DNA of 46,942 nucleotides, from contig JALEVV010000035.1 of NCBI GenBank assembly GCA_022788185.1, positions 1 to 46,942 of the forward strand, read 5' to 3'. Within the stretch, counting starts at the first letter, position 1. Each line of letters begins with the position of its first letter. The notes under the pieces were generated by a model. That model ran no database searches and was not told where the DNA came from. It worked only from the letters and a program-made list of their open reading frames with translations. The stretch is from Spirochaetales bacterium. GTDB lineage: Bacteria > Spirochaetota > Spirochaetia > Sphaerochaetales > Sphaerochaetaceae. The translations under genes were made by a program, and so were the position numbers. Shown here piece after piece: positions 1,283 through 33,499 of the stretch.

Positions 1283-1297
1283 TTTGTAAATCAAAAT

Positions 1298-1319
1298 GCT
1301 CTCCCTGCTTGGGGAGAGC
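1298..1319 (+). promoter_or_regulatory. Hairpin containing the putative ribosome site of the next gene
   Basis: Arms 1298-1305 (GCTCTCCC) and 1312-1319 (GGGAGAGC) pair perfectly around a 6-nt loop. The 3' side carries GGGGAG at 1311-1316, the only Shine-Dalgarno-like string before the ATG at 1328, so the fold would hide it. The tail TATATTATA is a poor terminator. Confidence 0.4.
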
Positions 1320-1327
1320 TATATTAT

Positions 1328-2398: not shown

Positions 2399-2454
2399 TC
2401 ATTTCTGATTTATTCTGACTTATAGCTATCAGGCGAATGGAGGGGGATTGTATT

Positions 2455-4464
2455 ATGGGAAGAAAAGCATTTGGGATCATTGCTTTAATACTCATTTCGT
2501 TATTGACTTTTATGGGTTGTGAACTGAATTCCAGTTCAAGTACTGCTCCTGGTAATTTAAAAATATATTTGAGTTCCAGTGCTGTGTCTTCCTTGGCTGC
2601 CGACAGTTCGTTGACTGCATACATCAGAACCGGGAACTCATCCGGGGCGATTGTTAAAGAGGTTGTTTTGTCCAAAGATTCCACTGCAGTAAATATTGAT
2701 CTCAACCCAGGAACATATTACCTGACACTTAACAATAAGTCTTTTACGATTGCAACTACAATCAGTATATCTTCCGGTGGCAAACACAGTGTATCTATAA
2801 ATCCTGTTACAACGGGTAAAGTAAAGTTTGTCCTTTCTGATAGTGTTAAAGAAATAATTAAAAAGAATTATTACAGCCTCTCGATCGAAATACGGAAGAC
2901 CGTATCATCTGCCCCTATTAATACCGTGTTGTTCCATTCCGGCTCATTATCAAACCAATTATATCAGCTGGAAAACGGGTCTTATTATTTAACTTATACA
3001 TTCAGTTCATATAATGGTGGTATTGAGCTGACAATCCCCGAAACTGTAACCGTAAAATCAGGAGAAACAACTCAGGTTGATATTGATTGTAAACCTAATG
3101 GTACCGTAAAAGTCGAAATGAGCAGTGAAGCTAGTTCTGTTTCTCCAAGCAATTTTGTCATTTACTTCTACTGTGATGCAGAAAGAACCGATTTGGCTAA
3201 TTCATTAAAGTATTATTCATTGAATAATACTCTTTCGCTTGATCCAGGCACTTACTATATTTCTTATACCTGTGACAATGGTGATCCTTTTGACATTGAT
3301 GAAACTGTTGATGTAGTAAATGGCGGCGCATCAACCGTGAAAGTTGATAAAAAAAATGATATAAATTATGTTTTTATTGATGATTATATAAGAAATAATT
3401 CTTCTAATTTGTACCCGCCTGACCGAGATGGTTTTAGAATTGTTTTTTCTGACAAGGATAGTGATTACACCTATTCTTATAATTATAAATATTCAAACAA
3501 TGTATACCTAAAAAAAGGTACATATAATATATCATTTGAGAATAATCCTGACGATTCAGGTTTCCTTGTCTCATCAGATACAACACAGATTTCAATAGGG
3601 GCTGAAAGGTCTAATTTAATTTTGAATCTGTGGGTTGTTGGATCAATCAACTTTGCTATAAATGATTCTAGCGAAGCTTCCGTCGCTCTTACCCTTGAGA
3701 AAATCGTTGAGAGTAATGAATCTGAAGTTAAGAAGATATACTCTGTCGATAATAATGTACAGAAGGTATATTTACCAGTAGGTGAGTATAAGGTAACCGG
3801 ATCTCTTGTTACAGATAATCCGTATATTGATTTCAGGTTGCCTTCTGAAACTATTTTTCTTTATCAGAAGAAAAATGTTGATTACAGACCTGAAGTATTC
3901 AGAACAGGTGTATTGGAATTGTCATTAACAGATGATTTCTATGAAAAGCTGGACAAACTCAGTGTTGTGGTTCATCTATATAGGAATGGTGAGTACTTTA
4001 AAGACTTGGTTATTTCTGAAACAACAAGAGAGAATAACAGATGGTATCTTCCTGAAGGCGTCTATACATATGAGCTGGAATATGATAAGCACCTAATGAA
4101 CTTAGCTTTTGATGCGGATTCCTTTAATGTATCGTATGCAAAGACTACACCAATTGTATGTAATAATTATGGTTTTGCTCGTTGTATTGCTGTGGATATA
4201 CAAAATAAAATTCCAGGCGCTTCAAAGATTGAATATTACAGTTATCAAGATTATCCAGTATTAAAGATAAGACTGAGAAATTATCCTGAGGGTTCTGTCA
4301 TTAAATTATATGATATGAGTAATGGAACAAGGTTCCTCGGTGAAGGTGATTATTTTGAAATCAGTCTGGATCAGCAAGGAATAAATAAAGATAATCTTCA
4401 AATTAGAATAACTAAGGATAATATGCTATTAGATGTTCAACAGATCGGAAATCTATGGAAATAA
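2455..4464 (+). CDS. Large repeat-containing lipoprotein
   Basis: A 669-aa protein. The ATG at 2455, not the in-frame ATG at 2437, is the likely start: it follows a strong GGAGGGGGA ribosome site at 2439-2447 and opens a lipoprotein signal peptide (MGRKAFG..., lipobox TFMGC, Cys about residue 22). The mature part holds several degenerate beta-sandwich-like repeats of roughly 85-100 residues, each with a G(T/S)YYxxY segment followed by a Val/Thr-rich 'T.xI..G' strand and a 'V.V/V.ID' strand. This resembles PEGA- or Ig-like surface repeats. Role probably in the cell envelope or adhesion; no catalytic motif is visible. The next gene starts 13 bp downstream. Confidence 0.72.
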   Translation: MGRKAFGIIALILISLLTFMGCELNSSSSTAPGNLKIYLSSSAVSSLAADSSLTAYIRTGNSSGAIVKEVVLSKDSTAVNIDLNPGTYYLTLNNKSFTIATTISISSGGKHSVSINPVTTGKVKFVLSDSVKEIIKKNYYSLSIEIRKTVSSAPINTVLFHSGSLSNQLYQLENGSYYLTYTFSSYNGGIELTIPETVTVKSGETTQVDIDCKPNGTVKVEMSSEASSVSPSNFVIYFYCDAERTDLANSLKYYSLNNTLSLDPGTYYISYTCDNGDPFDIDETVDVVNGGASTVKVDKKNDINYVFIDDYIRNNSSNLYPPDRDGFRIVFSDKDSDYTYSYNYKYSNNVYLKKGTYNISFENNPDDSGFLVSSDTTQISIGAERSNLILNLWVVGSINFAINDSSEASVALTLEKIVESNESEVKKIYSVDNNVQKVYLPVGEYKVTGSLVTDNPYIDFRLPSETIFLYQKKNVDYRPEVFRTGVLELSLTDDFYEKLDKLSVVVHLYRNGEYFKDLVISETTRENNRWYLPEGVYTYELEYDKHLMNLAFDADSFNVSYAKTTPIVCNNYGFARCIAVDIQNKIPGASKIEYYSYQDYPVLKIRLRNYPEGSVIKLYDMSNGTRFLGEGDYFEISLDQQGINKDNLQIRITKDNMLLDVQQIGNLWK

Positions 4465-4477
4465 AGGAGATAAGAAT

Positions 4478-5167
4478 ATGAAGAGGAAAGTGATGTTTCT
4501 AATTACGCTATTGGTTATTCTCCTTGCTGGATGTTCTTTGGAAAATGCACCCACTAAAGGCGAGATCATATTACAGATTGGGACTGCATCAAGAAGCCTT
4601 ACAAGTGGTGAGGTATTGAAAAATATGGATACTGCATACTATAAGGTTACTATAGGAAATCATTCAGCTAAAATAGTTTCAGAAGGTTCATATTTCAGAC
4701 AACAAATTGAAACAGGATATTATTCAGTTAATGTTGAAGCTTATAATTGTGATGATATTCTGCTGGGAAGTGGATCAACCGAGGTATATGTAACACCAGG
4801 GGAAGTAACGAAATGCAGTGTTGAAGTAAAGGAAATCAGTGGAAATGGAACACTGATAGTTCATATGGATAGAACAGCATCTGCTATTGAACAATACAGC
4901 CTTTCGGCAAAAATATACAAAATTTCTGCAGACGGGAATGATGTAGAAATTGCAGAAATACCCAATGACAGTTTTAATTCTATTATGAATGATGTAACGA
5001 TTGAATTGCCTGATGGATATTACTATATTTACTTTATTCCAGCTTTCAATTCATCGGAGATCCCAAAAACAGTAGAAAACCACATCCAAACATTTAGAAT
5101 TGTAAATGATTCTAATTCATATATTTACTGTAGAAATGATTCATCTGGTATGACTTATATACCGTAA
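4478..5167 (+). CDS. Lipoprotein; N-terminal part of a gene split by an in-frame TAA
   Basis: A 229-aa product. The start is ATG 4478 with AAAGGAG at 4463-4469; the frame's earlier ATG at 4433 lies inside the preceding gene and spoils the signal peptide. The signal sequence MKRKVMF... ends with lipobox LLAGC. The mature part resembles the repeat domains of the previous gene (YYxV, G.T.V.V strands). It stops at TAA 5165-5167 and the very next codon is an ATG in the same frame that opens 903 further codons. The simplest reading is that 4478-7879 was one gene of about 1,130 codons interrupted by a nonsense mutation (see findings). Confidence 0.65.
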   Translation: MKRKVMFLITLLVILLAGCSLENAPTKGEIILQIGTASRSLTSGEVLKNMDTAYYKVTIGNHSAKIVSEGSYFRQQIETGYYSVNVEAYNCDDILLGSGSTEVYVTPGEVTKCSVEVKEISGNGTLIVHMDRTASAIEQYSLSAKIYKISADGNDVEIAEIPNDSFNSIMNDVTIELPDGYYYIYFIPAFNSSEIPKTVENHIQTFRIVNDSNSYIYCRNDSSGMTYIP

Positions 5168-7879
5168 ATGTCATTTGAGGTTCTCACAGACACACCTGTT
5201 ATGAATGGGCCATTCAAAATCAGATACTCAAAGGTTGGTAAACAAAAAATTGATTCATTATCTTTTGATAGTGAAGGTTCATTTCCTTTCTCTCATTCCC
5301 AGAAAATCAATATTGATGACACTCATATTTACACTGATCATCTCAATGTTTCTAGTGGCGAACAGATTCTTTTATTGCATGCTCAATATTCAGATTCATC
5401 AAATCAGATTAAAACGTGTGAATATATAATAGGTGAGTATAATATAAAAGATGGTGATCGATTTTATATCACTCCAGAAAAAAAGGAGTTCGTTGTCGGT
5501 AGTACTGCTGAATTCCAGTTGAATTGTTATCCTAGCACCTATTCTTTTTCAACAGAGTGGTATTATAATGGAACAAATCTTCATGAATTAAATGGTTTTG
5601 GAATTTGGTATAACGGGTGCTCGTTCCGTCCTGATGTTATTGGTGAAAATATTATTGAAGCTGTCATAACAATGGAAGATGGTAATCAGACAACGGTATC
5701 ATATACTTTTGAAGTCTGCGAGAATGCTACTCTTTTGGATGACATTGGTGCAGGAATTGGCACACCGCTGGATGATGGAAGATTAGAAATATTAATATAT
5801 GGTAATTATTCAGGTTCATTAATTGCTTATCCTTGTGATGAAAATGGGAATAAAATAGGAGAGGGCGTAGAGGTTACGCAGAAGAATAATTGGGATAAGT
5901 CAGCAGCACTCAATTATCCTAGAGATTATCAGGCTGATAGTCTATATGTATATTTGGAAGGGTATATCAATGATAAGTTGGACGACTCTAAAATAATTAA
6001 GCTTTATGATTATTTACATTGTTTCAGGGTCGCTCTTTCTGAACCTATGTTTGGAGTATACACAAATCATGATAAACCAAAGTTACTTCTAGCAGGACTT
6101 GAACATTATCAGAAATATGATGTCAGGATTGGATACAGGCTTGGTGCCGGTGAAATGCACTATGTAGATGGCTATGACGGTCCTATTGAAGTAATCATGC
6201 CTGAGGATGCAATTCAGAGTACCTATGATCTTCACTGGGAGATTGAACTTTACAAAAATGGTTGGAGTAATGGTACATCAAGCGGTACTCTTTCCTTTGA
6301 TTATTATCCTGAAGGTTTGCCTACGATTCCGTCTGAAAAGGTCTATCAGGCTGTTGTATCCAAGGCTGATCTCAGTGGAAATCTGACGTTTGAGTATAGA
6401 ATTCTTACCCTTGATGCTGACAGTTATTATTTCTTCCGTGCTGTTGCAACAGACAATAAGAATGTCTATGTGAAGCAGTATCTTGAATCTGGAAGAGGAA
6501 AGCTTGATTCAAATGGTTCGACATTCACTATGAATGTAAAGACAACTAATGGCAGCAGAAGAGCGGTTGAATGCGAAATGCTTGAAAACGGTAATGTCAG
6601 AATAGATGGTATTGAATATACTTCGCTGAATTCCATTGGTATTAAGCAGCCGGGTAAATCATATGAAGGAGCATGGAATGTACCGAAAATAAGCCTGGGT
6701 ACAAAAATTCTATACTCAATATTCGAGAAATATGTTAACAGCCGACCTGAAGTAAAACAGATATTCCCCGACATTGATCAGCTACTCAGTGCCAGAGTCA
6801 CTGAAGGAGCTTCTGCTGATATCGGTGCATATATCAAGGATGGTACTATTAAGTTCGGTATCAGTGCAGATATTGATTTCTCACTGTTTGATAAAGCACT
6901 GTCTCTGGCAGATAAGTTCAGTCCCTATGCGGAGCTTTCACTTTCTTTCAGTGAAAAATCCAATGATGTACTGACAATCAATGGAGAGGATTACCCTGCA
7001 AGAATCATGGTTTCGTCTGATGGTGCAGTACTTATTATATATGTCTACAGATATGGAATCATTATCCCAATAGCAATGAGCAGGGCTTCCGAATACAGTA
7101 ATCCTTCAGTCAGTGCTGAAAACATCAAAGCATTTAATGCTGACAGATATGTTACCCTGACCCAGATATCTGAGTTTGCTGAAAAGATGAACAAGGAAAA
7201 CCCTGACATCTATCAGTCACTGATTGACAGTGCGACTACTGCAATTACTGTTGGTGATGATCAGGTTGAATTCGCCGGATGCTGGAATGTTATCAGTGAT
7301 GATATTTCTTCACTTGATGGTACAAGAATCGGTGTTGCTGCCGGAAGAATGTTGATAAAGCCTTCTGATACTAATGTACCGATCAATGGTGATTTCAGTG
7401 ATGCTGACGGTATTGTAACCTTCGATAATGGTGCTACCATGAAGATCAATGAAAGAAGAGTATCCTATGGTACGCTTATCCTCAGAGTGGATTATTCCGT
7501 AAATGGCATTACTCAAAGCGGTGAGCTTTGGCTTGAAAAGTATTCAGGAAATGCTTTTGATCTCCTGGTGAAGTACAATGAGCTTACTGGATACAGTCTA
7601 AATAAGATTGACTTCACGACAAGCGGAGATATCAGTGCTGACATTATCAGGGAAGGATCAAAAGAGACCGTAACAATCGGTAATTATTCAATTGGAGATG
7701 GAACTATTACGATTCAGCTGGATTCAGAAAAGATACAGCTCCCTGATACTCTTAAGGGATGTGAGCTCAAAGCAGGTGTCACACTTGCTTACCGTGACAA
7801 TGAAATCATCATGCTTGAAAAGTTCAAAGATGAAATGTCCGACGGTGAGTTTGGCATCCAGCTTGTTGATACGCTCTGA
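5168..7879 (+). CDS. C-terminal part of the split surface protein (or a separate protein without export signal)
   Basis: A 903-codon frame in the same reading frame as 4478-5167, starting directly after its stop. There is no signal peptide and no purine-rich ribosome site before the ATG at 5168. The first half looks like tandem Ig/PKD-type beta-sandwiches (strands such as 'EWYYNG' and 'TTVSYTFEV' around residues 110-180); the second half is Asp/Gly-rich beta-strand sequence of unknown family. Without the upstream lipoprotein signal the product would stay in the cytoplasm, which is implausible for this composition. I therefore infer a broken gene or a sequencing-level error rather than two real proteins. 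A good hairpin terminator follows at 7888. Confidence 0.5.
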   Translation: MSFEVLTDTPVMNGPFKIRYSKVGKQKIDSLSFDSEGSFPFSHSQKINIDDTHIYTDHLNVSSGEQILLLHAQYSDSSNQIKTCEYIIGEYNIKDGDRFYITPEKKEFVVGSTAEFQLNCYPSTYSFSTEWYYNGTNLHELNGFGIWYNGCSFRPDVIGENIIEAVITMEDGNQTTVSYTFEVCENATLLDDIGAGIGTPLDDGRLEILIYGNYSGSLIAYPCDENGNKIGEGVEVTQKNNWDKSAALNYPRDYQADSLYVYLEGYINDKLDDSKIIKLYDYLHCFRVALSEPMFGVYTNHDKPKLLLAGLEHYQKYDVRIGYRLGAGEMHYVDGYDGPIEVIMPEDAIQSTYDLHWEIELYKNGWSNGTSSGTLSFDYYPEGLPTIPSEKVYQAVVSKADLSGNLTFEYRILTLDADSYYFFRAVATDNKNVYVKQYLESGRGKLDSNGSTFTMNVKTTNGSRRAVECEMLENGNVRIDGIEYTSLNSIGIKQPGKSYEGAWNVPKISLGTKILYSIFEKYVNSRPEVKQIFPDIDQLLSARVTEGASADIGAYIKDGTIKFGISADIDFSLFDKALSLADKFSPYAELSLSFSEKSNDVLTINGEDYPARIMVSSDGAVLIIYVYRYGIIIPIAMSRASEYSNPSVSAENIKAFNADRYVTLTQISEFAEKMNKENPDIYQSLIDSATTAITVGDDQVEFAGCWNVISDDISSLDGTRIGVAAGRMLIKPSDTNVPINGDFSDADGIVTFDNGATMKINERRVSYGTLILRVDYSVNGITQSGELWLEKYSGNAFDLLVKYNELTGYSLNKIDFTTSGDISADIIREGSKETVTIGNYSIGDGTITIQLDSEKIQLPDTLKGCELKAGVTLAYRDNEIIMLEKFKDEMSDGEFGIQLVDTL

Positions 7880-7950: not shown

Positions 7951-8859
7951 TCACTCAACTCTCTGGAACAGAATCTCCTCGTCCCCGCCGCAGATCATAT
8001 TTAGATCACCTTTTGGGTTGAGGACGTATTCTTTGAGAAGGGCATCTCCCTGCAGGGCCCTCGCATCCTCAATGGTTCTCTTTTCAAGTGCTCCTCCGCC
8101 GACAGTGCCGTATACGGTGTCTGCAGTCACGAACATGCTTGTTCCGATCTGGCGTGGGGCCGAGCCTTTCTTAGAGATGATCCTGCATAGGACTCCGTTA
8201 CCTTTTTCCGCAACTTCCTCAAGAAGGGGAATGTCCGCAAGACTTCTGTTTGCCTTAGACGAATAGACCTGAATGATCTCGCCCATGATCGAAACTGCTA
8301 TCTCCGCGGGAGTGTCTCCTCCTATCTTGATGCCGATGGGAGCATGCACTCTAGAAAGCTGCTCTTCCGTATACCCCTCATTTCTGAGTTTCTCAAAGGT
8401 AGTCTTCACCTTTCCTTTTGAGCCTATCATTCCCACATACTCACTTTCCTGATGAAGACACCATTCAAGACATTCCTTGTCTCCGAAGTGACCATGGGTG
8501 AAAATGCAGTAATAGGGGTTATAAACATCAAGCTTCAGTGATGATAAGTCACTGTAATCCACTTTGATAAGGTCCGCCCCTGGAAAGTCCTCAGGGATGA
8601 GTATCTCATCTCTTGAATCTATTACGGTCACATTGATGTCCAGCAGGCGGGCAAGTCTGAAAACTGCTTTGCCGACATGGCCTGCCCCGAAGAGAACAAG
8701 ATGCACCTGCGGTGTCAGATCCTCCTCAAGCACCCTCCCTGAGAAGATATTATCGTTCAGGTTTTCCTTTCCAAGTGTATCACCTTCAAGGGAAGTGAAG
8801 CGTCTGACACTTCCTTTCCTTAGTAATCCTAGCAGTGTGTCAAAGTAGTCCTTTTTCAT
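7951..8859 (-). CDS. XdhC/CoxI-family molybdenum hydroxylase maturation factor, domains in reversed order
   Basis: A 302-aa protein. XdhC proteins bind molybdenum cofactor, protect it while a terminal ligand (sulfur, or probably selenium in this context) is installed, and pass it to xanthine dehydrogenase-type enzymes. Residues about 52-200 form the Rossmann-like XdhC_C domain (GAGHVG at 58-63, THGH at 121-124, GMIGSK at 143-148, APIG at 173-176). Residues about 205-300 form the XdhC_CoxI domain (GSAPR at 232-236, GGG at 254-256, MICGG at 288-292, with Cys290). Canonical XdhC has these domains in the opposite order. The start overlaps the end of the desulfurase gene by 20 bp, so the two are co-transcribed. 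Assignment to the family is firm; the partner hydroxylase is not in the window. Confidence 0.85.
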   Translation of the reverse strand: MKKDYFDTLLGLLRKGSVRRFTSLEGDTLGKENLNDNIFSGRVLEEDLTPQVHLVLFGAGHVGKAVFRLARLLDINVTVIDSRDEILIPEDFPGADLIKVDYSDLSSLKLDVYNPYYCIFTHGHFGDKECLEWCLHQESEYVGMIGSKGKVKTTFEKLRNEGYTEEQLSRVHAPIGIKIGGDTPAEIAVSIMGEIIQVYSSKANRSLADIPLLEEVAEKGNGVLCRIISKKGSAPRQIGTSMFVTADTVYGTVGGGALEKRTIEDARALQGDALLKEYVLNPKGDLNMICGGDEEILFQRVE

Positions 8860-9979
8860 TCAGAAACTCCTTTACAAGATTGATGCAGGAATCTGCTTCC
8901 TCTTTCGTATTATAGTGGCTGAAGGAAAATCTGATCGTTCCCTCAGGATATGTTCCGATATATCTGTGAGTCATGACATTGCAGTGCAGTCCGACTCTGG
9001 TCTGCACGTTGTTAGCTGCAAGATAGTTTGAAAGCTCCGCCACATCAAAGTCCTTTGATGAGAGCGAGACAATGGGTATTTCAGCTGATGCTGAATGTAT
9101 TTTGATATGTTGAATATCCAATAGGGTATTAAGGAAATATTCCTTAATGCACCTTTCCTTTTTCCTTATCCCGTCTTTATTCCGTTCAAGGTATTCTAAT
9201 GCGGCTTCAAGCCCAATGAGACCGATTATGTTCTGCGTACCGCTTTCAAATCGGTCAGGAAGATTCTCAGGCTGTGTAAGAAGGTCGCTGAAGGAGCCTG
9301 TTCCGCCAAAGATAAGCGGTTTGATCTTCTTTATCATCTCAGGCTTTGCAATAAAGCCTCCTGTACCCTGAGGGCCAAGCAGGCCCTTGTGGCCTGTAAA
9401 GCACAGTACTGAGATGTTATCAGCTTCCATATCAAGCTCGATATGGGGCAGGGCCTGAGCGGAATCTATTATCAGGGGTAATCCGTATTCCCTGAGTACC
9501 TTCCCTGTTTCATGAACAGGCTGTACGGCACCGGTCACGTTGTTTGCAGCCTGAATTATCACAGCTTTTGTTTTTGGTGTTATCAGCTTTGAAATTTCAT
9601 TCGGGATAATTTTACCATTAGCGTCAGCGGGGATTATTGAGTATTTTATTTTTCTCTCGATGAGCACACGCATCAATGCATTGTGCTCCAGGGGGGAGAT
9701 GAGAACCTCATCTCCCTCACTGAGATACCCCTGAATAACCGTGTTAAGTGCTGATGTGACATTAGGTGTGAATACAGTACATTCCGGGTGAGCAGAATTC
9801 ACAAGTGATGAAAGTCTTTCCCGTAAGGAAATTATCTTATCCTCGGCAGAGAAATTATACTCTGTTTCACCTCTCTGGATGTTTGATCCGTTGTTCAGAA
9901 AGTAGTCTTCCATTGCTGAAAGAACCTCTTGCGGCTTGGGAAAGGATGTGGCACTGTTGTCGAGGTAGATTCTGTTCAT
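8840..9979 (-). CDS. Class V aminotransferase / cysteine desulfurase, EF2568-type selenium-locus family
   Basis: A 379-aa PLP enzyme of the NifS/SufS fold. Visible features are the N-terminal YLDNSATSFPKP motif, His99 (LEHN), Asp172 in the PLP-pyridine motif IDSAQ, the Schiff-base Lys198 in TGHKG, and Cys333 in LHCN, the expected persulfide- or selenide-carrying cysteine. It should take sulfur or selenium from cysteine/selenocysteine. This class of desulfurase-like protein is known to travel with orphan SelD and selenium-dependent molybdenum hydroxylases, and here it is transcribed divergently from yedE-tusA-DUF3343-selD. ATG 9979 has no ribosome site; it sits in the loop of a perfect dyad (9969-9990) just after a TATTCT -10-like box. 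Confidence 0.88.
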   Translation of the reverse strand: MNRIYLDNSATSFPKPQEVLSAMEDYFLNNGSNIQRGETEYNFSAEDKIISLRERLSSLVNSAHPECTVFTPNVTSALNTVIQGYLSEGDEVLISPLEHNALMRVLIERKIKYSIIPADANGKIIPNEISKLITPKTKAVIIQAANNVTGAVQPVHETGKVLREYGLPLIIDSAQALPHIELDMEADNISVLCFTGHKGLLGPQGTGGFIAKPEMIKKIKPLIFGGTGSFSDLLTQPENLPDRFESGTQNIIGLIGLEAALEYLERNKDGIRKKERCIKEYFLNTLLDIQHIKIHSASAEIPIVSLSSKDFDVAELSNYLAANNVQTRVGLHCNVMTHRYIGTYPEGTIRFSFSHYNTKEEADSCINLVKEFLNEKGLL

Positions 9980-9990
9980 GAAAACAGAAT
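9969..9990 (-). promoter_or_regulatory. Perfect 8-bp dyad enclosing the desulfurase start codon
   Basis: ATTCTGTT and AACAGAAT arms (9969-9976 and 9983-9990) flank 6 nt. On the minus strand the ATG (9979-9977) lies in the loop. It can be read as a repressor operator covering promoter and start, or as an RNA hairpin presenting a leaderless start codon. It lies in the only promoter-bearing gap of the selenium locus (9980-10050). Confidence 0.45.
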
Positions 9991-10050
9991 ATCACTGATA
10001 TATTGAAAAATCCATTGCATTCTCAAAAATACAATGGTAGTCTAAATAGC

Positions 10051-11124
10051 ATGAAACTACTCAAAGACAAAAGAAATTTACTCATTGCAGGACTCATCAT
10101 TGGCGTCGTCGCCTTCCTGCTCCCGCTCTTCGGCAATCCCAAGAACATGGGATTCTGTATCGCATGCTTCGTCCGTGACATTGCAGGCGGACTGAAGCTC
10201 CATAATGCATCAGTCGTTCAGTACATCCGTCCCGAGATCATCGGTCTCATCCTGGGCTCCTTCCTGATTGCAGTGATCACAAAGGAATTCCGTCCCCGCG
10301 GAGGTTCATCCCCGGCTCTGAGATTCATCATCGCAGCCTTCGTCATGATCGGCGCACTGGCATTCCTTGGATGCCCGTTCCGCATGATCATCCGTCTTGC
10401 CGCAGGTGATCTCAATGCACTGGTCGGACTTTTTGGCTTCATAGCCGGTATTGCAGTGGGTGCTGTTTTCCTTAACCATGGATTCTCCCTTGGAAGGTAT
10501 CAGAAGCAGAGTGCCGTTGAAGGTGTTGCCCTTCCGTTTTCAAATGTAGTGCTTCTTGTGCTCTTCCTTGCCGTTCCGGCACTCTTTGCCTTCTCTGAAA
10601 AGGGACCAGGATCAATGCACGCCCCTGTAATCCTCTCTCTTGCAGCGGGATTAATCGTAGGTGCACTCGCCCAGAAGACCAGACTCTGCATGGTCGGCGG
10701 TATCCGTGATACCATCCTCGTCAAGGATCCCACACTGCTTTTCGGCTTTGTCTCAATCTTTGCCGTAATGCTGGTTCTCAACCTTGCCACAGGAAACTTC
10801 AAGCTTGGTTTTGCAGGTCAGCCCGTTGCTCACTCAGACCATCTCTTTAACTTCCTCGGTATGGCTCTCTGCGGTCTTGGAAGCACAATGCTTGGCGGAT
10901 GTCCCTTAAGACAGCTCATCCTTGCCGGTGAAGGTAACAGTGACAGTGCCGTATCTGTATTCGGACTTCTTGTCGGAGCTGCCATCAGCCACAACTTCTC
11001 ACTGGCCGGTGTTGCAAATGAAGGCGTTAAGACAAATGGCCGTGTAGCGGTAATCTTCGGTCTTGTCTTCCTGGTTGCAGTTGCACTTGTGAAGATTTAT
11101 CAGGTTAAGAAGGAGGAAGCATAA
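10051..11124 (+). CDS. yedE: YedE/YeeE-family membrane transporter, selenium-metabolism type
   Basis: A 357-aa integral membrane protein with about ten hydrophobic segments. YeeE/YedE proteins move thiosulfate-like sulfur, and a selenium-locus subfamily is presumed to move a selenium compound. The paired cysteine motifs are present: GFCIACF near the N-terminus, GCPFRM, TRLCM and GGCPLRQ. I chose ATG 10051 because TTG 10003 would add a charged 16-residue leader; no strong ribosome site is visible for either. The stop overlaps the TusA-like gene by one base (TAATG), so the two are translationally coupled. Substrate is inferred from the SelD and desulfurase neighbours. Confidence 0.85.
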   Translation: MKLLKDKRNLLIAGLIIGVVAFLLPLFGNPKNMGFCIACFVRDIAGGLKLHNASVVQYIRPEIIGLILGSFLIAVITKEFRPRGGSSPALRFIIAAFVMIGALAFLGCPFRMIIRLAAGDLNALVGLFGFIAGIAVGAVFLNHGFSLGRYQKQSAVEGVALPFSNVVLLVLFLAVPALFAFSEKGPGSMHAPVILSLAAGLIVGALAQKTRLCMVGGIRDTILVKDPTLLFGFVSIFAVMLVLNLATGNFKLGFAGQPVAHSDHLFNFLGMALCGLGSTMLGGCPLRQLILAGEGNSDSAVSVFGLLVGAAISHNFSLAGVANEGVKTNGRVAVIFGLVFLVAVALVKIYQVKKEEA

Positions 11125-11330
11125 TGAAGACCATTGACTGCAGGGGACTCAGCTGTCCCGAACCTGTCGTTCAGACCAAAAGAGCCATCGGCGGCCAGAA
11201 GGAGCTTGCCGTAATCGTTGACAACATTGCTGCCAGGGAAAACGTCACCAGACTTGGAAATGCCCTCGGTTATGATGTTGTTGTAAAGGCGGATGGCGGA
11301 GAGTATACTCTTACTCTGAAGAAGAGATGA
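11124..11330 (+). CDS. Stand-alone TusA-like (YedF N-terminal type) sulfur/selenium carrier
   Basis: A 68-aa protein of the TusA/SirA fold. Residues 4-14 contain the signature CRGLSCPEP, whose CPxP cysteine carries a persulfide or selenopersulfide. In many selenium loci the matching protein (YedF) is a longer two-domain protein; here only the N-terminal TusA-like part exists. A strong AAGGAGG at 11110-11116 precedes the ATG. It overlaps yedE by 1 bp and the DUF3343 gene by 4 bp. By position it probably takes selenium or sulfur from the transporter or desulfurase and hands it to SelD or DUF3343; this relay is inference. Confidence 0.88.
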   Translation: MKTIDCRGLSCPEPVVQTKRAIGGQKELAVIVDNIAARENVTRLGNALGYDVVVKADGGEYTLTLKKR

Positions 11331-11542
11331 AGTATATAATAACATTTTATTCACACTACGAGGCCGTTCAGGCCAGACGTATCGCTAAAGGGGGACGCCT
11401 CATAAGCGTTCCTCGTGTTTTATCCTCATCCTGCGGGACGGCAATGGAACTGGAGGAGAAGGATGGTTTTGTTCCTTCCTTCCGCTTCGAAACGCTCTAC
11501 AGACACGATGGGGAAGGTTATTCAAAGGTAACAGATGGTTAA
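11327..11542 (+). CDS. DUF3343 small protein, putative Se/S carrier
   Basis: A 71-aa protein of the DUF3343 family, whose members are often found beside YedE, YedF and SelD and are described only as putative Se/S carriers. It begins with a beta-strand (YIITFYSHYEA) and has a single conserved-looking Cys in the SSSCGTA motif around residue 36, a candidate chalcogen-binding residue. It overlaps the TusA-like gene by ATGA and selD by 8 bp, so all four genes are coupled. Function is not established; the tight coupling supports a role in handing selenium to SelD. Confidence 0.82.
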   Translation: MKYIITFYSHYEAVQARRIAKGGRLISVPRVLSSSCGTAMELEEKDGFVPSFRFETLYRHDGEGYSKVTDG

Positions 11543-12548
11543 ACTCACAAGTATGGTTAAGACCAGCGGGTGTGCGGCAAAGCTCTCTCCCAAGGAGCTC
11601 TTTTCCGTCATCGACACTCTTCCGGTCCTTACCAGTGATAAACTGCTGAATGGCTATGAAGGTGCTGAAGATGCCCTGATCTATGACCTGGATGACGGAA
11701 GGGTGATGCTGGAAACGGTTGATTTCTTTCCTCCCATGGTTGATGATCCCTATACCTTCGGGCAGATAGCTGCGGCCAATGCCATTTCAGATATCTATGC
11801 AATGGGCGGGAAACCCGCCGTGTGCATGAATCTTGTATGTTTCCCTGCCTGTCTGGATCTCTCTGTCCTCAGTGAGATCCTCAAGGGCGGAATCGATAAA
11901 GTACGTGAAGCAGGCTGTGTTATCGGGGGCGGACATACTATCAGTGACCCGACACCTAAGTATGGGCTCTGCGTCACGGGCTTTGCTGAAAAGGGAAAGG
12001 TTTGGAGAAACAGGGGAGCAATACCCGGTGATGTGCTTGTCCTTACCAAGGCTCTGGGAGTGGGAATCATTAACACTGCAAAGAAAGCTGATATGTGTGA
12101 TGATACTTCATTTGAGCTGGCAGTTAAGAGCATGACCACACTCAATAAGCGGGCTTACGAGTGTGCCCTTCCGCTGGAAGTTCATGCCGCAACCGATGTA
12201 ACGGGCTTCTCCCTGGCAGGTCACTCCAATGAGATGGCTGCATCTTCAAAGGTTAAAGTGGTAATTGATTCCTCGAAACTCAATATCATTCCCGGTGCCC
12301 TTGATGGTGCCAGATTCGGACTCATCCCTGAAGGTCTTTACAACAACAGGGAGTATCTGGAGGATAAGGTGACTTTCAGGGGTGATATCCCCCTTGAGTT
12401 GAAGGATATCTGCTTTTCTCCGGAAACCAGCGGTGGTCTTCTCTTGAGCCTTCCGGAAAAAGATGCACAGAGTTTCATCTCCTCCTTCGGAGAGCCTGCC
12501 CGGATAATCGGAAGGGTAGAGGAAGGTGAAGGGGTGGAGATTATCTGA
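11535..12548 (+). CDS. selD: Selenophosphate synthetase SelD
   Basis: A 337-aa cytoplasmic enzyme that makes selenophosphate from selenide and ATP. Cys13 and Lys16 in the motif SGCAAK align with the catalytic Cys17 and Lys20 of E. coli SelD; the catalytic position is Cys rather than selenocysteine. AIR-synthase-like motifs follow (DFFPPMVDDP near 57-66, GGGHT, ATDVTGFSLAGH, SPETSGGLL). ATG 11535 is chosen because AAAGG lies at 11524-11528; ATG 11553 is possible but would leave only six residues before the Cys. No selA, selB, selC or selU is in the window, so this may be an orphan SelD serving molybdenum hydroxylases. It ends 62 bp before the IS256 element. Confidence 0.95.
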   Translation: MVKLTSMVKTSGCAAKLSPKELFSVIDTLPVLTSDKLLNGYEGAEDALIYDLDDGRVMLETVDFFPPMVDDPYTFGQIAAANAISDIYAMGGKPAVCMNLVCFPACLDLSVLSEILKGGIDKVREAGCVIGGGHTISDPTPKYGLCVTGFAEKGKVWRNRGAIPGDVLVLTKALGVGIINTAKKADMCDDTSFELAVKSMTTLNKRAYECALPLEVHAATDVTGFSLAGHSNEMAASSKVKVVIDSSKLNIIPGALDGARFGLIPEGLYNNREYLEDKVTFRGDIPLELKDICFSPETSGGLLLSLPEKDAQSFISSFGEPARIIGRVEEGEGVEII

Positions 12549-12658: not shown

Positions 12659-13890
12659 TCATAGTTTTACTCTATCTCCAAACATTATTGACAACTGGTT
12701 GATTATCACACCCCAGTTCTGAACAGGCATGGTCCATTTTTTCGAGATGTTGTTAATCGCCAGATACATGATCTTATAGACGGAATCGTCATCAGGAAAA
12801 GCATTGCGGTTCCTGGTGACTTTTCTCAAGGTGTAGTTAAGGGACTCAATGGCATTCGTGGTGTATATGAGTTTCCTTATCTCTTCAGGGTATGAGAAGA
12901 ACTCCTTCAGGTCATTCCAGTGGTTTTCCCAGGACTTCCTTATTATCGGGTATTTGGAATCCCATATTTCACCGAATGCCTCAAGCTGGTCCAGAGCCTC
13001 TTCCTCATTGGCACTGCCGTAGATTTTCTTCAGATCCCTGCAGATGGCCTTAAGATCCTTATAGCTTACGAACTTCGTGCGTTTCTGACCATGTGCACGA
13101 TGCACAGCTGTACAACGGTCTACGGGAAAACCGCCCTGACGGCTTCAGGAAAGCCCGTGAGGCCATCCATGCATGCAAACAGTATATCCTTCACCCCACG
13201 GGACTTAAGGTCGCTCAGAACGCTCATCCAGAACTTGGCACCTTCATTGTCGGACAGATACATTCCCAATACTTCCTTACGGCCTTCCAGATTGATTCCG
13301 AGAGCGATATACAGGGCTTTGTTCTGGTTCTTTCCGCTTTCCCTGGAGTTTATGCGCAGCGCATCAAGATACACTACGGCATACATATCCTCCAATGAAC
13401 GCCTGCGCCATTCATTGACGTCATCCATCACGGCATTGGTAACCTCACTGATCAGGGCCGGGGACACATCGACATTGTATATATCCTTAAGGTGCTTAAC
13501 GATATCCCTTGCCGTCATGCCTCTGGCGTAAAGCGAGATGATCTGGTCATTGAAGAGTTCTATCCTCTTTGAGTACTTCGGAACGATGACCGGTTCAAAT
13601 TCCCCGGTACGATCCCTGGGGACTTCTATTTCCACTTCCTGATCGCCGGTCAGCACCTTCTTCGTCGTATGTCAGTTCCTGCTGTTCCCGGTATTGTTCC
13701 CCGCAGCAGAGTTCTTCTTATACCCAAGGTGATGGTCCATCTCCGCTTCCAGGGCCTTATTCAGCAATCTGGTTGTTAATGTCTTTATCAGCCCTCCTTC
13801 TCCGAACAACTCATCCTGGGTGATTCCACTTAAATCCAGCTGATCGATTAACTGATCAATCTGATCCTTTTCCTTTGGTGCTCTTGGCAT
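12659..13890 (-). pseudogene. IS256-family transposase, three disabling lesions
   Basis: Reading from 13890, the protein begins MPRAPKEKDQ and runs through the family motif GYKKNSAAGNNTGNSRN to a TGA at 13672-13674 where the family has Gly. The same frame continues (HTTKK, then EVEIEVPRDR, catalytic Asp in YLDALR and in CMDGL) to a TAG at 13120-13122 where Gln is expected. It continues in frame through VQLCIVHMVRN and then loses one base near 13080-13090; the C-terminal part resumes in another frame as TKFVSYKDLK and includes the catalytic Glu in TNAIESLN. All three DDE residues survive but no full-length product can be made. Confidence 0.9.
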
Positions 13891-13952: not shown

Positions 13953-13960
13953 ATTTCAAA
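13953..13960. repeat. Right 8-bp target-site duplication
   Basis: ATTTCAAA identical to 12603-12610. It includes the TGA stop codon (13956-13958, minus strand) of the DUF4143 ATPase gene. Confidence 0.8.
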
Positions 13961-15314
13961 GCATCATTACCATATATGGAGGGATACACACGATATCATC
14001 CTTAACTATCAGGTTTCTCGGGTGAATAATATAACTTTCTCCTATTCTGTCTTTATATTTTTCTTTAAATCTTGACAGTGATTTAGTTGTGTATTTTACG
14101 CCTGACTTTACCTCAATCGGAAATATCCTGTATTTCAGTTTGCTGTTATTTGAAAGTACAAAATCTATTTCGATGTCATTTCTGTGTTTCTCTTCGTTAT
14201 AATGCGTATAAAAGTACAGTTTATGTCCGTTTGCAGTAAGCATTTGTGCAATGATGTTTTCATAAAGCATTCCTTCATTTAATGAAAGTTTACCTGATAA
14301 TATCTGCTTATATACTTCATCCTCCAGTAATTCATTTTCATCAAATGCATGGCTTACCAGCAGTCCTGTGTCACCCATATAGCATTTTACATATGTCCTT
14401 ACTTCATTCACCGATAATCCCGTATTAGGATCGCTGCACATAAAGCATTCATTGGATATCATGGAGTCTGCAAGCCAGAAAAATGTCTCCTCGTATTGTT
14501 CAGCTGAAGATCTCTCCTGTATGTTTTTGAAAACCACTCTTTTCTCATGCTGAGAAAGGAGACCGGGTATCTGATCAAATATGGAAAGCACCTTACTCCG
14601 ATACCGGGTATTTATCTTCATGATATCTTCCCTATACAGTTTAAGGATGTCTCTTTTTTCTCTGTCAGCTAAAGAAAAATCCTTATTGTTTTCCACAAAA
14701 AGAATGACAGGTTTAGGCATTCCTCCGACTAACATATATTGTTTAAACAGAAGCATGGCTTTATTATGCAGACTTCTGTCCATGGGTATTCTGTTAATGA
14801 AACAGCTCTTGATGCATTCTAAAAGCATATCTTCTCCAAGAGCCCATGCAAATTCCTCAAAATCCAGTGGATACATGTTCAGATGACGTTCTTCTGACGG
14901 AATTACGATATCTTTTACATTTTCCTTTATTGAGATCAAAGATCCGGTTTCGATATAGTCATATCTTCCATCTGCCACCAGGTACTTTATCGCCGCCCTT
15001 GCCTGAGGATACATCTGTACTTCATCAAAAATTATAACTGCATCCCTTTTTTTTAATCTTTTCCCAAAATGAGCCTGTAGCATCATAAAAAATGTATCAA
15101 GGTCATTCAGATAGCTTTCAAAATACTGCTCTACATCTTTATCTTTTTTTGCAAAGTCAATAAGAATATAATTATTATACTCGTTTCTGGCGAATTCCTC
15201 ACAGATTGTTGACTTTCCGATACGTCTTGCTCCTTCTATAAGAATTGCTTTACTGCCTTTTGATTCTGTTTTCCATTCAAGGAGTCTGGAATATATCTTT
15301 CTTTTCAATATCAT
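13956..15314 (-). CDS. DUF4143-type AAA+ ATPase with C-terminal nuclease-like domain
   Basis: A 452-aa protein. Residues 1-200 are an AAA ATPase with Walker A GARRIGKST (28-36), Walker B IIFDEVQ (94-100) and the sensor-like TGSLIS motif. The C-terminal third is the DUF4143 region and ends with a PD-(D/E)xK-like core (IDFVLSN... FPIEVKSG, about residues 388-415). Such proteins are abundant and laterally mobile in anaerobes; proposed links to toxin-antitoxin or defence functions are unproven. The gene is AT-rich compared with selD and ygeW, consistent with transfer. The C-terminus looks complete despite the IS at the stop codon. Three copies of a 10-bp repeat lie upstream, the nearest overlapping a CATAAT -10-like box 11 bp before the ATG. 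Confidence 0.85.
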   Translation of the reverse strand: MILKRKIYSRLLEWKTESKGSKAILIEGARRIGKSTICEEFARNEYNNYILIDFAKKDKDVEQYFESYLNDLDTFFMMLQAHFGKRLKKRDAVIIFDEVQMYPQARAAIKYLVADGRYDYIETGSLISIKENVKDIVIPSEERHLNMYPLDFEEFAWALGEDMLLECIKSCFINRIPMDRSLHNKAMLLFKQYMLVGGMPKPVILFVENNKDFSLADREKRDILKLYREDIMKINTRYRSKVLSIFDQIPGLLSQHEKRVVFKNIQERSSAEQYEETFFWLADSMISNECFMCSDPNTGLSVNEVRTYVKCYMGDTGLLVSHAFDENELLEDEVYKQILSGKLSLNEGMLYENIIAQMLTANGHKLYFYTHYNEEKHRNDIEIDFVLSNNSKLKYRIFPIEVKSGVKYTTKSLSRFKEKYKDRIGESYIIHPRNLIVKDDIVCIPPYMVMML

Positions 15315-15403: not shown

Positions 15404-15863
15404 TTTATCCAGGGGGATTCTTAAAAAATCCGACAAGTTTGTCAAATTTTACTGTAATTGATGTGTTTCTGGTGTATATGCCTTGATGCTGATAGGTAAG
15501 GTTCTGCTTATTGATCATCGTTAGGATAATTGCACGGGGATGGACCGAAAAAGTGCAGGTGTAGCGTTTATTCATGAAAAGATAGGGTGACTTTTGCGCA
15601 TTCAGCCTTAATTAGATAGATTACCTGAATAGTCCCCAGCCAGGATCACCCCACAATATAGGTGAGTTGATGCGTGCCGGGGATTCGTTTTGTCAACTGC
15701 TCAATTAAGATGTTTCTGACAGTATCGTTGCTCTGTCTTTCTTCAGTGACAGAGTTGAAGAAATAATACGTGCAACAAAACGCAACATTTTACTTGCAAA
15801 TGATAATATGCCGTGGTAAAGTATCAGCATAAAATGATTTTCTTTACAGGAGAGTTTTATATT
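15404..15863. other. 460-bp gene-free region before ygeW
   Basis: No coding frame is convincing here. Visible structure: a GACAA/TTGTC hairpin followed by AAATTTTA near 15433-15450; a TCCCC...GGGGA long-range pairing (15633-15682) enclosing TCACC/GGTGA (15646-15650 with 15661-15665); and a CTCTGTC/GACAGAG hairpin around 15731-15755. The last 100 bp should hold the ygeW promoter. No riboswitch class was recognised. Confidence 0.4.
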
Positions 15864-17066
15864 ATGAAAAAATCCAAGGCTGAGATTCAGAGCATGATCA
15901 GTACCCTCAAGGGACTTAAGACTGATAACATGTATCTCAACGACTTCTTCCATACATGGAAAGAGACAGATGATGAGATCAGCGCAGTATTTGAGGTTGC
16001 TGAGATCCTCCGCGCCATGAGAGAGAACAACATCTCCACCAAGGTTTTCGATTCAGGCCTTGGTATCTCAGTGTTCCGCGATAACTCAACAAGAACACGT
16101 TTCTCATTTGCATCCGCATGTAACCTCCTCGGTCTCGAGGTTCAGGATCTTGATGAGAAGGTTTCCCAGATCGCACATGGTGAAACAGTCCGTGAGACAG
16201 CAAACATGGTTTCCTTCATGGCAGATGTCATCGGTATCCGCGATGACATGTACATCGGTAAGGGCCACACATACATGAAGACCGTTTCCGAAGCAGTTCA
16301 GGAAGGTTACAATGACGGCGTTCTCGAGCAGAGACCCACTCTCGTAAACCTCCAGTGTGATATCGACCATCCGACCCAGTCCATGGCTGATATGCTCCAT
16401 GTAATCAACTACTTCGGCGGTGTTGAGAACCTCAAGGGCAAGAAGATTGCAATGACATGGGCTTATTCTCCTTCCTACGGTAAGCCGCTCTCAGTTCCCC
16501 AGGGTATCATTGGTCTCTTCTCCAGATTCGGCATGGACGTTGTCCTCGCTTATCCGGAAGGCTATGACATCATGGATGATGTTGTTGAAGTCGCAAAGAA
16601 GAATGCTGAAGCATCCGGCGGTTCCTTCAAGAAGGTTAACTCAATGGAAGAGGCATTCAAGGATGCCGATATCGTATATCCCAAGTCATGGGCTCCCTTT
16701 GCAGTAATGGAAGAAAGGACAAAGCTTGTTGGCGAAGGTAAGTTCGATGAACTCAAGGAACTCGAGAAGAGATGTCTTGAGAACAATGCCAAGTTCAAGA
16801 ACTGGACATGTACCGAAGAACTCATGAAGACCACCAAGGACGGTAAGGCTCTCTACATGCACTGCCTCCCTGCAGACATTTCCGGTCTCTCCTGTAAGGA
16901 AGGTGAGGTTGAGCAGAGCGTATTCGACCGCTACCTCGTTCCTCTCTACAAGGAAGCAAGCTACAAGCCTTACATCATCGCCGCAATGATCTTCCTTGCC
17001 AAGTTCAAGGATCCCAGCGCCAAGCTCGAAGAGCTCCTTGAGGATGCAAAGCCCAGAATCAAATAA
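15864..17066 (+). CDS. ygeW: YgeW-type knotted carbamoyltransferase
   Basis: A 400-aa member of the aspartate/ornithine carbamoyltransferase superfamily, YgeW branch. The carbamoyl-phosphate motif STRTR is at 75-79, HPTQSMAD at 169-176 and HCLPAD at 333-338. YgeW proteins bind carbamoyl phosphate but lack known ornithine or aspartate activity; the true substrate is unsettled. In E. coli and gut anaerobes ygeW belongs to the gene set for selenium-dependent, xanthine dehydrogenase-linked purine breakdown, which fits the selenium and molybdenum genes on both sides here. ATG 15864 is chosen because CAGGAGAG lies at 15847-15854; the frame's earlier start (15813) has no such site. Monocistronic, with a terminator at 17091. 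Confidence 0.9.
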   Translation: MKKSKAEIQSMISTLKGLKTDNMYLNDFFHTWKETDDEISAVFEVAEILRAMRENNISTKVFDSGLGISVFRDNSTRTRFSFASACNLLGLEVQDLDEKVSQIAHGETVRETANMVSFMADVIGIRDDMYIGKGHTYMKTVSEAVQEGYNDGVLEQRPTLVNLQCDIDHPTQSMADMLHVINYFGGVENLKGKKIAMTWAYSPSYGKPLSVPQGIIGLFSRFGMDVVLAYPEGYDIMDDVVEVAKKNAEASGGSFKKVNSMEEAFKDADIVYPKSWAPFAVMEERTKLVGEGKFDELKELEKRCLENNAKFKNWTCTEELMKTTKDGKALYMHCLPADISGLSCKEGEVEQSVFDRYLVPLYKEASYKPYIIAAMIFLAKFKDPSAKLEELLEDAKPRIK

Positions 17067-17182: not shown

Positions 17183-18232
17183 TTATCTTGAAAGCTCTCT
17201 CTTCTCTGCTTCAGTCAGTGTATGTCCGTAGTAGAGTGAATAGAACTCTTCAGCCTTTGAAAGGAAATCCTCTGTGTTGAGCTCGGGATAGAGCTTTGAC
17301 GCTGCATAGTAGATTCCGATTATCCTGTTTACCGCAGGTGGTGCATCGATCATGGGGAAGAGCACTTCAGGCACTCTGTATACCTTATTAGCCTGAACTG
17401 CGGGAAGGTACGCCCATTCGCTCTTCGTCGTGATCACATTATATGCACTGTCTTCCAGAACGAAGATCATCTCAACATTGAGTTTATAGAGCTCCTCGAG
17501 GGAAATTTGGTTGTTACCGCTGGAGATCGTGGTATCAACAACGTTGTTTCCGCCCACTGTTTCCAGTACTTCAGCATGGAAGTTTCCTCTTGGAATGGCT
17601 CCAAGACCATCCAGGTTGGTTGCATAGTAGAAATCGGTGCTGTCGGTAACCTGTCCTGCAATGGTGTGAGCATAGTTCACTGCTTCCTGAGCGAAGGCTG
17701 CAAGCTCATTGCCCCTTTCTTCCCTGTGGAGTGCTTCCCCCATCCTTGAGAATGTATCTGCAATGCCATTGAGATGGCTTTCAATGAAGATTACGGGAAT
17801 TCCGATGTCCGATGACAGTTTATCCAGATCGCTTATCATGTCTGCAGTGCTTCCCTTGATCTCGCCCACGTCGATCACGACCTGAGGGGAGGCCACAATG
17901 AGGGCTTCCCTGTTGAGATTGGCTTTCTTTCCATAGAAGGTTCCCAGTACGGGAAGGGAAGCGTAATCGCTGCCGAAGAACTCGGTTTCAACGGCGGAAG
18001 GCCTGGTCGTGACACCTATGATCAGGTCTGAATCAAAGGCAAGCAGGAATGCACTTGCCATGCTTCCGCTAGGAGCAACACGATCGATGTTCACAGGAAG
18101 TGTCACTTCACGTCCCAGATCGTCCGTGAAGACGAAGGTTTCCTCTGCCTTTGCCGCTTCTGCTGCCCCCTGTGCGAACAGTACAGTTACCGACAGTAAG
18201 AGTACCGTGATGATCAGAGTCAGTTTTTTCAT
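17183..18232 (-). CDS. Periplasmic binding protein of FecB/BtuF/MolA type, probable molybdate/tungstate
   Basis: A 349-aa class III solute-binding protein. The signal peptide (MKKLTLIITVLL...) ends with LFAQGAAEAA and has no lipobox cysteine, so the protein is probably soluble in the periplasm. The mature start FVFTDDLGREVTLP is the usual opening of this family, and two Rossmann-like lobes follow. Such proteins bind siderophores, cobalamin, heme or, in the MolBCA system, molybdate/tungstate. I favour molybdate because the operon begins with a ModE-type DNA-binding domain and lies beside molybdenum hydroxylase maturation genes. It is the last gene, with its ATG immediately after the methyltransferase stop. 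The substrate is inferred, not seen. Confidence 0.8.
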   Translation of the reverse strand: MKKLTLIITVLLLSVTVLFAQGAAEAAKAEETFVFTDDLGREVTLPVNIDRVAPSGSMASAFLLAFDSDLIIGVTTRPSAVETEFFGSDYASLPVLGTFYGKKANLNREALIVASPQVVIDVGEIKGSTADMISDLDKLSSDIGIPVIFIESHLNGIADTFSRMGEALHREERGNELAAFAQEAVNYAHTIAGQVTDSTDFYYATNLDGLGAIPRGNFHAEVLETVGGNNVVDTTISSGNNQISLEELYKLNVEMIFVLEDSAYNVITTKSEWAYLPAVQANKVYRVPEVLFPMIDAPPAVNRIIGIYYAASKLYPELNTEDFLSKAEEFYSLYYGHTLTEAEKRELSR

Positions 18233-18877
18233 TTATTCCTCCTTTGAGATTACAAAAAGGCCGAATGCCTTTCTGTTGATGGCGATGTATCCGCCTTCAG
18301 TCTTTTCTATTGATGTATTTATCGTCCTGTTTTTATAGTTCTCCCTGATGAAGCTTTCCGCTTCCTCCTTTGAGGAAAGCGGCTGGTTGAATGAAAGCCT
18401 TTCAAGAGAGAAGGTGTACTTCACGCCTCTTTCCCTGAGATAGTTTACGGTCTCAAGACTTCTGGAAAACCTTGTCTCACCGGCTCCGGCATGTTCATTC
18501 TGGATGTAGATAAGCTTCTTAGTGCATGATGATAGAAGTACATCAAGATTATCCTCTTCCCTTATGCGTCCGAAGAAGACGGCAAGAGCCACATCCCTTA
18601 CTATCGGGGTGGTATAGGCATCTTCTAGCAGGAAGGATGAGGATGGGAATCTGTTTTTTGCAAATGTAATTGCCTTCTCATCCGTGTCGATACCCGTCAC
18701 GTCAAATCCGTTGGATGACAGTTCGTGAGTAATGTATCCAAGTCCGCATCCTAGTTCCACAATGGTATCTTCCGCATCAAGGTAATCCATAATAAGCTTA
18801 GTGAGATCTTTATGGAAACTGGAAGCGGATGCCGCTTTCTCATATAGTCTTATTCTCTCATCACTCCACCACATCAT
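18233..18877 (-). CDS. Class I SAM-dependent methyltransferase inside the importer operon
   Basis: A 214-aa cytoplasmic protein. The SAM-binding motif I VELGCGLGYIT is at about residues 39-49 and motif II acidic residue in GIDTD at about 61-65, with the Rossmann strands expected of class I enzymes. The second half (residues about 110-205) is less typical. The start overlaps the ATPase gene by 17 bp and the stop abuts the binding-protein start, so it is an integral operon member. Its substrate is unknown: it might modify the transported ligand, a metallophore, or an unrelated molecule. Similar methyltransferases occur near several metal importers, but no function follows from that. Confidence 0.75.
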   Translation of the reverse strand: MMWWSDERIRLYEKAASASSFHKDLTKLIMDYLDAEDTIVELGCGLGYITHELSSNGFDVTGIDTDEKAITFAKNRFPSSSFLLEDAYTTPIVRDVALAVFFGRIREEDNLDVLLSSCTKKLIYIQNEHAGAGETRFSRSLETVNYLRERGVKYTFSLERLSFNQPLSSKEEAESFIRENYKNRTINTSIEKTEGGYIAINRKAFGLFVISKEE

Positions 18878-33363: not shown

Positions 33364-33499
33364 GGATGAATTCTATCATAACTCCGGACTTTTCAGGAAA
33401 AAAATGAGCGAAATAGTTCAAATTACACAGTTTGTTCCGGGTTGCGAAAATATGATTACGTGGTATTCTTTCTTCATGGGATTTTCCCACAAACTTTAC

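Follow-up and report, generated by a model that had tools for sequence, protein, structure and literature searches.

What does a spirochaete do with a selenophosphate synthetase (SelD) when it appears to make neither selenocysteine nor selenouridine? We addressed this question for a compact selenium locus on a 46,942-nucleotide stretch of DNA from a Spirochaetales bacterium (contig JALEVV010000035.1 of assembly GCA_022788185.1; hereafter the window), in which selD shares an operon with genes for a YedE-family transporter, a TusA-domain protein and a DUF3343 protein, divergent from genes for a cysteine desulfurase and an XdhC-like chaperone. The host genome (G000) is a 2.27 Mb draft of 90 contigs, 94.9% complete, of which the window is contig 25. 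We consider it likely, at a probability of roughly four in five, that the locus collects selenium and activates it for molybdenum hydroxylases that act in purine breakdown, and that the host system is a case of the known third selenium trait, in which an orphan SelD supplies selenium-dependent molybdenum hydroxylases (SDMH). As a trait this is already established.

Profile searches of the host genome were set beside those of 61 relatives (16 of them in the genus), 14 control genomes and 247 genomes sampled over the phylum. SelD was found above its cut-off in a single copy in the host and in 39 of the 61 relatives. The search for SelA returned no match in the host (selB and the tRNA-Sec gene, selC, were not searched for) and none above cut-off in the genus (0/16 genomes); that this search works is indicated by the relatives that do score above cut-off (7/61). 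SelU/YbbB also gave no match in the host and none above cut-off in the relatives (0/61), with 1 of the 14 control genomes positive. YqeB (TIGR03309, 354.8 bits) and YqeC (TIGR03172, 121.9 bits), published markers of SDMH (PMC2276186, PMC11448449), are each encoded once, above cut-off, on host contig 61 (G000:C61), and in the genus YqeB is above cut-off in every genome but one (15/16), which holds a fragment. A selenium-dependent xanthine dehydrogenase (TIGR03311, 1285.8 bits; cut-off 830.45) is encoded on host contig 62, and contig 69 carries a TIGR03313 hydroxylase (1183.6 bits; cut-off 1101.9) together with SsnA (546.6 bits; cut-off 455.5) and further xanthine-dehydrogenase-type subunits. 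Nine congeners besides the host have hydroxylase genes on the same fetched stretch as the locus (G001, G002, G004, G007, G008, G009, G011, G012 and G014). Among the 61 relatives, SelD occurs without SelA above cut-off in 33 of the 39 SelD genomes (hand count), and YqeB is above cut-off in 32 of these 33, the other (G027) having YqeC. An earlier reading of the window by itself, the first-pass annotation, had proposed an orphan SelD for SDMH; the presence of SelD, YqeB, YqeC, TIGR03311, TIGR03313 and SsnA above cut-off without SelA or SelU bears this out. These results come from the genome search that it had suggested, carried out for selA, selU and xanthine-dehydrogenase-type subunits (selB and selC, also on its list, were not searched for), and they did not refute the proposal. 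The gaps of a 90-contig draft and the omission of selB and selC leave a little room for the idea that the selenium goes to selenocysteine or to tRNA selenouridine through genes in unsequenced parts of the genome, yet the lack of SelA above cut-off throughout the genus and of SelU throughout the relatives, together with the YqeB of the genus, makes such a destination very improbable.

We compared the locus with the orphan-SelD/SDMH trait as published (Haft and Self 2008, PMC2276186; Zhang et al. 2008, PMC2432076). Shared with that trait are SelD without SelA or SelU, the accompanying YqeB, YqeC, SsnA, YgeW and hydroxylases, and an EF2568-type desulfurase and a TusA/SirA-domain protein near selD. 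The host locus differs in that a one-domain TusA protein replaces the two-domain EF2566, YedE and DUF3343 are part of the operon, YqeB and YqeC are on another contig, and an XdhC of reversed domain order adjoins the desulfurase.

The genes form two divergent operons (Table 1), the leftward one holding the desulfurase and XdhC-like genes, which overlap by 20 bp, and the rightward one yedE, the TusA-domain gene, the DUF3343 gene and selD, which overlap successively by 1, 4 and 8 bp. The six positions and three rightward overlaps listed in the first-pass annotation agree exactly with the open reading frame (ORF) coordinates, and the carrier cysteines that it singled out (C11 in the CPxP motif of the TusA-like protein, C36 of DUF3343, C333 of the desulfurase and C13 of SelD) are all upheld by alignment. 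Gene families were assigned with Pfam and NCBIfam models. For YedE, an ATG start at 10051 (357 amino acids, aa) is likelier than the TTG at 10003. Recurrence of this gene order across many independent genomes is far beyond chance, and the locus offers a compact, well-conserved parts list for what would be selenium supply to molybdenum hydroxylases.

Table 1. Features of the selenium locus and its surroundings in the window, with the evidence or remark for each.
Feature	Position	Strand	Evidence or remark
XdhC-like molybdenum-cofactor chaperone	7951..8859	-	Pfam XdhC_C + XdhC_CoxI; reversed domain order
EF2568-type cysteine desulfurase / candidate selenocysteine lyase, Cys333	8840..9979	-	family models and structure-sequence alignment
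Divergent intergenic stretch, short; would be expected to hold two promoters	9980..10050	.	likelier YedE ATG at 10051
YedE-family candidate selenium transporter	10003..11124	+	TIGR04112 (seleno_YedE) 495.3 bits, cut-off 200
68-aa TusA-domain protein, CPEP motif, Cys11; probable cytosolic partner of YedE	11124..11330	+	PF01206 62 bits, cut-off 28.6
71-aa DUF3343 / Se_S_carrier protein, motif P-R-x-L-S-S-S-C-G, Cys36	11327..11542	+	PF11823 42.7 bits, cut-off 25
SelD, selenophosphate synthetase (Cys13 form)	11535..12548	+	TIGR00476 347.1 bits, cut-off 125
Mutator-type transposase, broken, three pieces, not in system	12659..13890	-	PF00872 matches in three separate ORFs
YgeW knotted carbamoyltransferase, in published purine/SDMH gene set	15813..17066	+	TIGR03316 772.5 bits, cut-off 500

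We then examined how strictly YedE and the small TusA-domain protein go together, using named-genome YedE loci (the best 80 of 526 confirmed loci; this set and the 61 relatives share at least two genomes, L118 / G021:C56 and L126 / G001:C6). A TusA-domain ORF stands immediately 3' of YedE in all 80 loci, with a length of 66–116 aa in 79 of them; the 80th (L146) is 166 aa long, starts upstream of the YedE end and falls outside the counting rule that gives 79/80. The same arrangement is found in 31 of 32 YedE-positive relatives (hand count), the exception being G006, where YedE lies at a contig end, and C11 of the CPEP motif is kept in every aligned sequence (80/80; window + 79). The first-pass annotation had called a separate short TusA-like protein unusual; these counts do not support that remark, and the short one-domain TusA protein is YedE's usual partner. 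Against the model of two-domain YedF (TIGR03527, 194 positions, N-terminal TusA followed by a C-terminal DsrE-like domain), the window protein matches positions 1–65 only, at 57.4 bits and below the cut-off of 110. Within the fetched stretches a long YedF (201–243 aa) was seen in five relatives, four of them without YedE above cut-off (G020, G029, G039 and G058) and one with both short and long forms (G060). TusA matches of at least 180 aa occur in 2 of the 80 YedE stretches, one a real long YedF (L145, 208 aa) and the other a weak match within an 816-aa ORF (L177). In E. coli K-12, yedE overlaps a 77-aa yedF by 4 bp and tsuA adjoins a 75-aa tsuB; the parallel with this yedE pair is no more than a distant one, as no control genome, E. 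coli included, scores above the YedE model cut-off, and a profile built from 10 YedE proteins gives E. coli YedE 10.6 bits as against 50.7 bits for E. coli TsuA.

The arrangement suggests a transporter/acceptor pair built like TsuA-TsuB (YeeE-YeeD), in which the transporter depends on TsuB/YeeD as an essential partner, whose CPxP cysteine, at the cytosolic mouth, follows three membrane cysteines as the fourth and cleaves thiosulfate (PMC11073785). In both pairs a one-domain CPxP protein comes after a YeeE/YedE-family transporter. The three relay cysteines have possible YedE counterparts: C229, C300 and C124 align with C22, C91 and C293 of Spirochaeta thermophila YeeE, in weak alignments that indicate position only (E 0.0056 overall; the C124/C293 stretch, at 6.0 bits, is insignificant alone). 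These three cysteines are invariant in 10 YedE sequences, and the YedE profile gives the same pairing against E. coli TsuA. The two systems differ in that the halves of the YedE transporter stand in opposite order, YedE has additional conserved cysteines (C52 and C55), neither DUF3343 nor selD lies beside E. coli tsuAB, and the YedE substrate here is putative. Window YedE stays far below the cut-offs of both TsuA models (33.1 bits, cut-off 645; 31.6 bits, cut-off 400).

DUF3343 is the next gene after TusA in 69 of the 80 YedE loci by the counting rule. Three of the 11 loci without it by that rule have one upstream of YedE; in L131 and L150 DUF3343 lies farther upstream, and in L146 it is next and is dropped by the rule. 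C36 is kept in all aligned sequences (70/70; window + 69), and the structure is predicted with a local distance difference test score (pLDDT) of 90. Given its one invariant cysteine and its co-encoding with SelD, the protein could plausibly pass selenium on to SelD. The remark of the first-pass annotation that the carriers are essentially uncharacterised holds only in part, as Lin et al. 2015 (PMC5322559) had already proposed DUF3343 as a selenium trafficking chaperone and YedE as a selenium transport protein. Their Slackia genes Shel_25110 (DUF3343), 25120 (SirA-like) and 25130 (YedE) carry consecutive locus-tag numbers and so correspond to the triad of the window; Slackia differs in having selenocysteine genes, whereas here SelD is an orphan and selD follows as the fourth gene. 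For the SelD of the window, alignment places C13 at the Cys of a GC motif close to the N-terminal end of SelD chain 3u0o, which we take to be the E. coli enzyme. Separately, the SelD of one relative (G059) reads through one TGA and is probably a selenocysteine SelD.

The desulfurase is matched best by the EF2568-type model (TIGR01977; 362.1 bits), and alignment places its C333 at the HHC-motif Cys of cysteine desulfurase 8d8s. Its pairing with XdhC recalls Rhodobacter capsulatus, where NifS4 sulfurates the molybdenum cofactor on XdhC (PMC2997495), and with the overlap of the two genes it raises the prospect that desulfurase and XdhC place sulfur rather than selenium on the cofactor, without feeding SelD. 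The pair here differs from NifS4-XdhC in its overlapping genes, its reversed XdhC domains and its place next to a selenium module. Of the 80 YedE loci, 53 have a desulfurase gene divergent from YedE, but no more than 12 of these 53 also have an adjacent XdhC-like gene, and EF2568, the best family of the window desulfurase, is linked to SelD in print. A sulfuration role is on balance somewhat unlikely; the low frequency of a neighboring XdhC-like gene ties the desulfurase mainly to the selenium module and favors selenocysteine recycling over a role with XdhC. The host also encodes a second, NifS/IscS-type cysteine desulfurase (G000:C62, L051:2609-3781; best model 474.8 bits, below the cut-off of 530.75), so that the one in the window is not its only one.

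Several observations weigh against a locus that supplies selenium to SDMH. Three congeners (G002, G007 and G011) give weak SelA matches of 21.7–24.6 bits, below the cut-off. MoCoBD_1 hydroxylases, with four matches in the host genome, occur in 57 of the 61 relatives, more than have SelD; their mere presence is weak evidence, and therefore only the selenium-specific hydroxylase models count. The YedE-TusA-DUF3343 module is also found in SelA genomes (G031: L091, L092; G059: L097), so it is not hydroxylase-specific, and the window desulfurase falls below the cut-offs of both the EF2568 model (by 15 bits, at 362.1/377) and SclA (301.8/525). DUF3343 also occurs in organisms without SelD, and Lin et al. 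weighed YedE as an exporter as well (PMC5322559). In Methanococcus maripaludis deletion of yedE with its neighbor is described as giving no clear selenium-transport phenotype, only a mild selenocystine phenotype common to other mutants, although the yedE transcript there rises strongly under selenium starvation, a point in favor of the selenium reading (PMC11097638). This deletion and the DUF3343 of SelD-lacking organisms would also suit a module for the uptake and trafficking of sulfur (thiosulfate or sulfane sulfur) that selD merely adjoins, as would the kinship of YedE and its TusA-domain partner to the sulfur-handling TsuA and TsuB, to the first of which the 50.7-bit profile match belongs. 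Such a sulfur module is nevertheless improbable: window YedE matches the selenium-associated YedE model strongly (Table 1) and the TsuA models weakly, SelD is encoded in the fetched stretch of 44 of the 80 YedE loci, selD itself overlaps the DUF3343 gene in the window, and SelD is above cut-off in 31 of the 32 genomes with YedE above cut-off (hand count), the exception again being G006.

For selenium supply to the hydroxylases, the reading we prefer, gene content, order, conservation and co-occurrence outline a route whose transfer steps we infer throughout. YedE probably imports a selenium species. The TusA-domain protein may well dock on the cytosolic face of YedE and take the chalcogen on its CPEP cysteine, as TsuB/YeeD does for TsuA/YeeE, and DUF3343 might carry it on the invariant cysteine to SelD, a step that we put forward with some reserve. 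It is an even chance that the desulfurase adds selenium recovered from selenocysteine to this pool; that it feeds XdhC is a more tentative suggestion. SelD almost certainly forms selenophosphate, and YqeB, encoded elsewhere, and the reversed-order XdhC would then, rather likely between them, equip the molybdenum cofactor with a selenium ligand for insertion into the hydroxylases, which they would also carry out. YqeB is the only one of these maturation factors for which we met genetic evidence: in C. difficile, good growth on xanthine and urate requires SelD and YqeB (PMC11448449). The strict YedE-TusA pairing, with TsuA-TsuB as its model, and the reversed XdhC are the parts worth pursuing.

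In the window XdhC-like protein the Rossmann domain comes first (residues 54–195) and XdhC_CoxI second (218–269; Pfam), opposite to the solved relative PDB 2we7, which has the CoxI-type part and then the Rossmann part, and thus not in the canonical XdhC order. By two domain profiles the fetched stretches contain 29 reversed proteins (that of the window included, and with L071 and L126 probably one contig) and 12 canonical ones, 8 of the latter being YqeB of 495–561 aa, the host's own among them; since the xdhC and yqeB profiles assign the label yqeB to XdhC proteins of about 300 aa, identities were settled by domain order. A whole-genome search with the reversed protein, requiring alignment through both domains, found the reversed form in 23 of the 61 relatives, all one family (in G003 as a contig-end fragment). 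Sixteen of these 23 genes adjoin the desulfurase and/or YedE, 4 share a contig with hydroxylase genes (at a distance of about 1.2 kb in three and about 7 kb in G030), and 3 lie within 1.5 kb of YqeB or YqeC. Over the phylum sample the reversed form was found in 3 of 247 genomes, all with SelD above cut-off; the other 55 genomes with any match score as separate domains or fragments, and SelD is above cut-off in 41 of those 55, as against 109 of the 247 overall (hand count). A Clostridia genome (L183) has a reversed XdhC between YqeB and selD. Because canonical XdhC also co-occurs with SelD (41/55), the tie of the reversed form to selenium rests on gene neighborhood, and shared descent rather than function could lie behind its distribution, the form being largely confined to one family. 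We regard as unlikely, and put forward only as a conjecture, that the reversed XdhC is a separate selenium-dedicated chaperone, which would build the Mo=Se ligand with selenium supplied by either the desulfurase or selenophosphate, with canonical XdhC handling sulfur. We did not find the reversed order singled out in the literature searched. Its layout could help to explain the path of selenium to these enzymes and, if the conjecture is true, would provide a genetic handle on the selenium-insertion step alongside YqeB.

Beyond the locus itself, the YgeW gene starts 3.3 kb past selD. Fifteen other fetched stretches have a strong YgeW match. In 12 of them the gene follows selD at a distance of 66–608 bp, in two more it is about 1.7 and 2.0 kb downstream, and in one it is on the opposite strand (among the fetched stretches, L071 and L126 are probably one contig). 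Two features separate selD from ygeW in the window, the broken transposase of Table 1 and an AAA_14/DUF4143 ATPase gene (13956-15314). The ATPase gene is probably an insertion, because the selD-ygeW gap is too short for it in those 12 stretches.

The closest named relatives of the window YedE, among the matches listed, are at most 71% identical and come from Sphaerochaetaceae or Spirochaetales metagenome genomes. Several of these are from animal gut, which makes a gut spirochaete the most likely host. Gut bacteria can rely on hydroxylases of this kind to degrade xanthine and uric acid, which gives the parts described here a wider interest. Elsewhere in the window, a run at 33442-40503 (a weak substrate-binding-protein match, an ATP-binding cassette (ABC) ATPase, two permeases, a DeoD-type purine-nucleoside phosphorylase, a nitroreductase-like ORF and a nucleoside hydrolase) resembles a gene set for taking up and degrading nucleosides, fitting purine use. 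Five successive large ORFs on the + strand at 128-7879 (384, 356, 675, 244 and 903 aa) gave no Pfam match, and the genes at 17183-20623, for a FecCD-type ABC permease, an ATPase, a methyltransferase and a periplasmic binding protein, resemble an operon for the uptake of a metal or siderophore.

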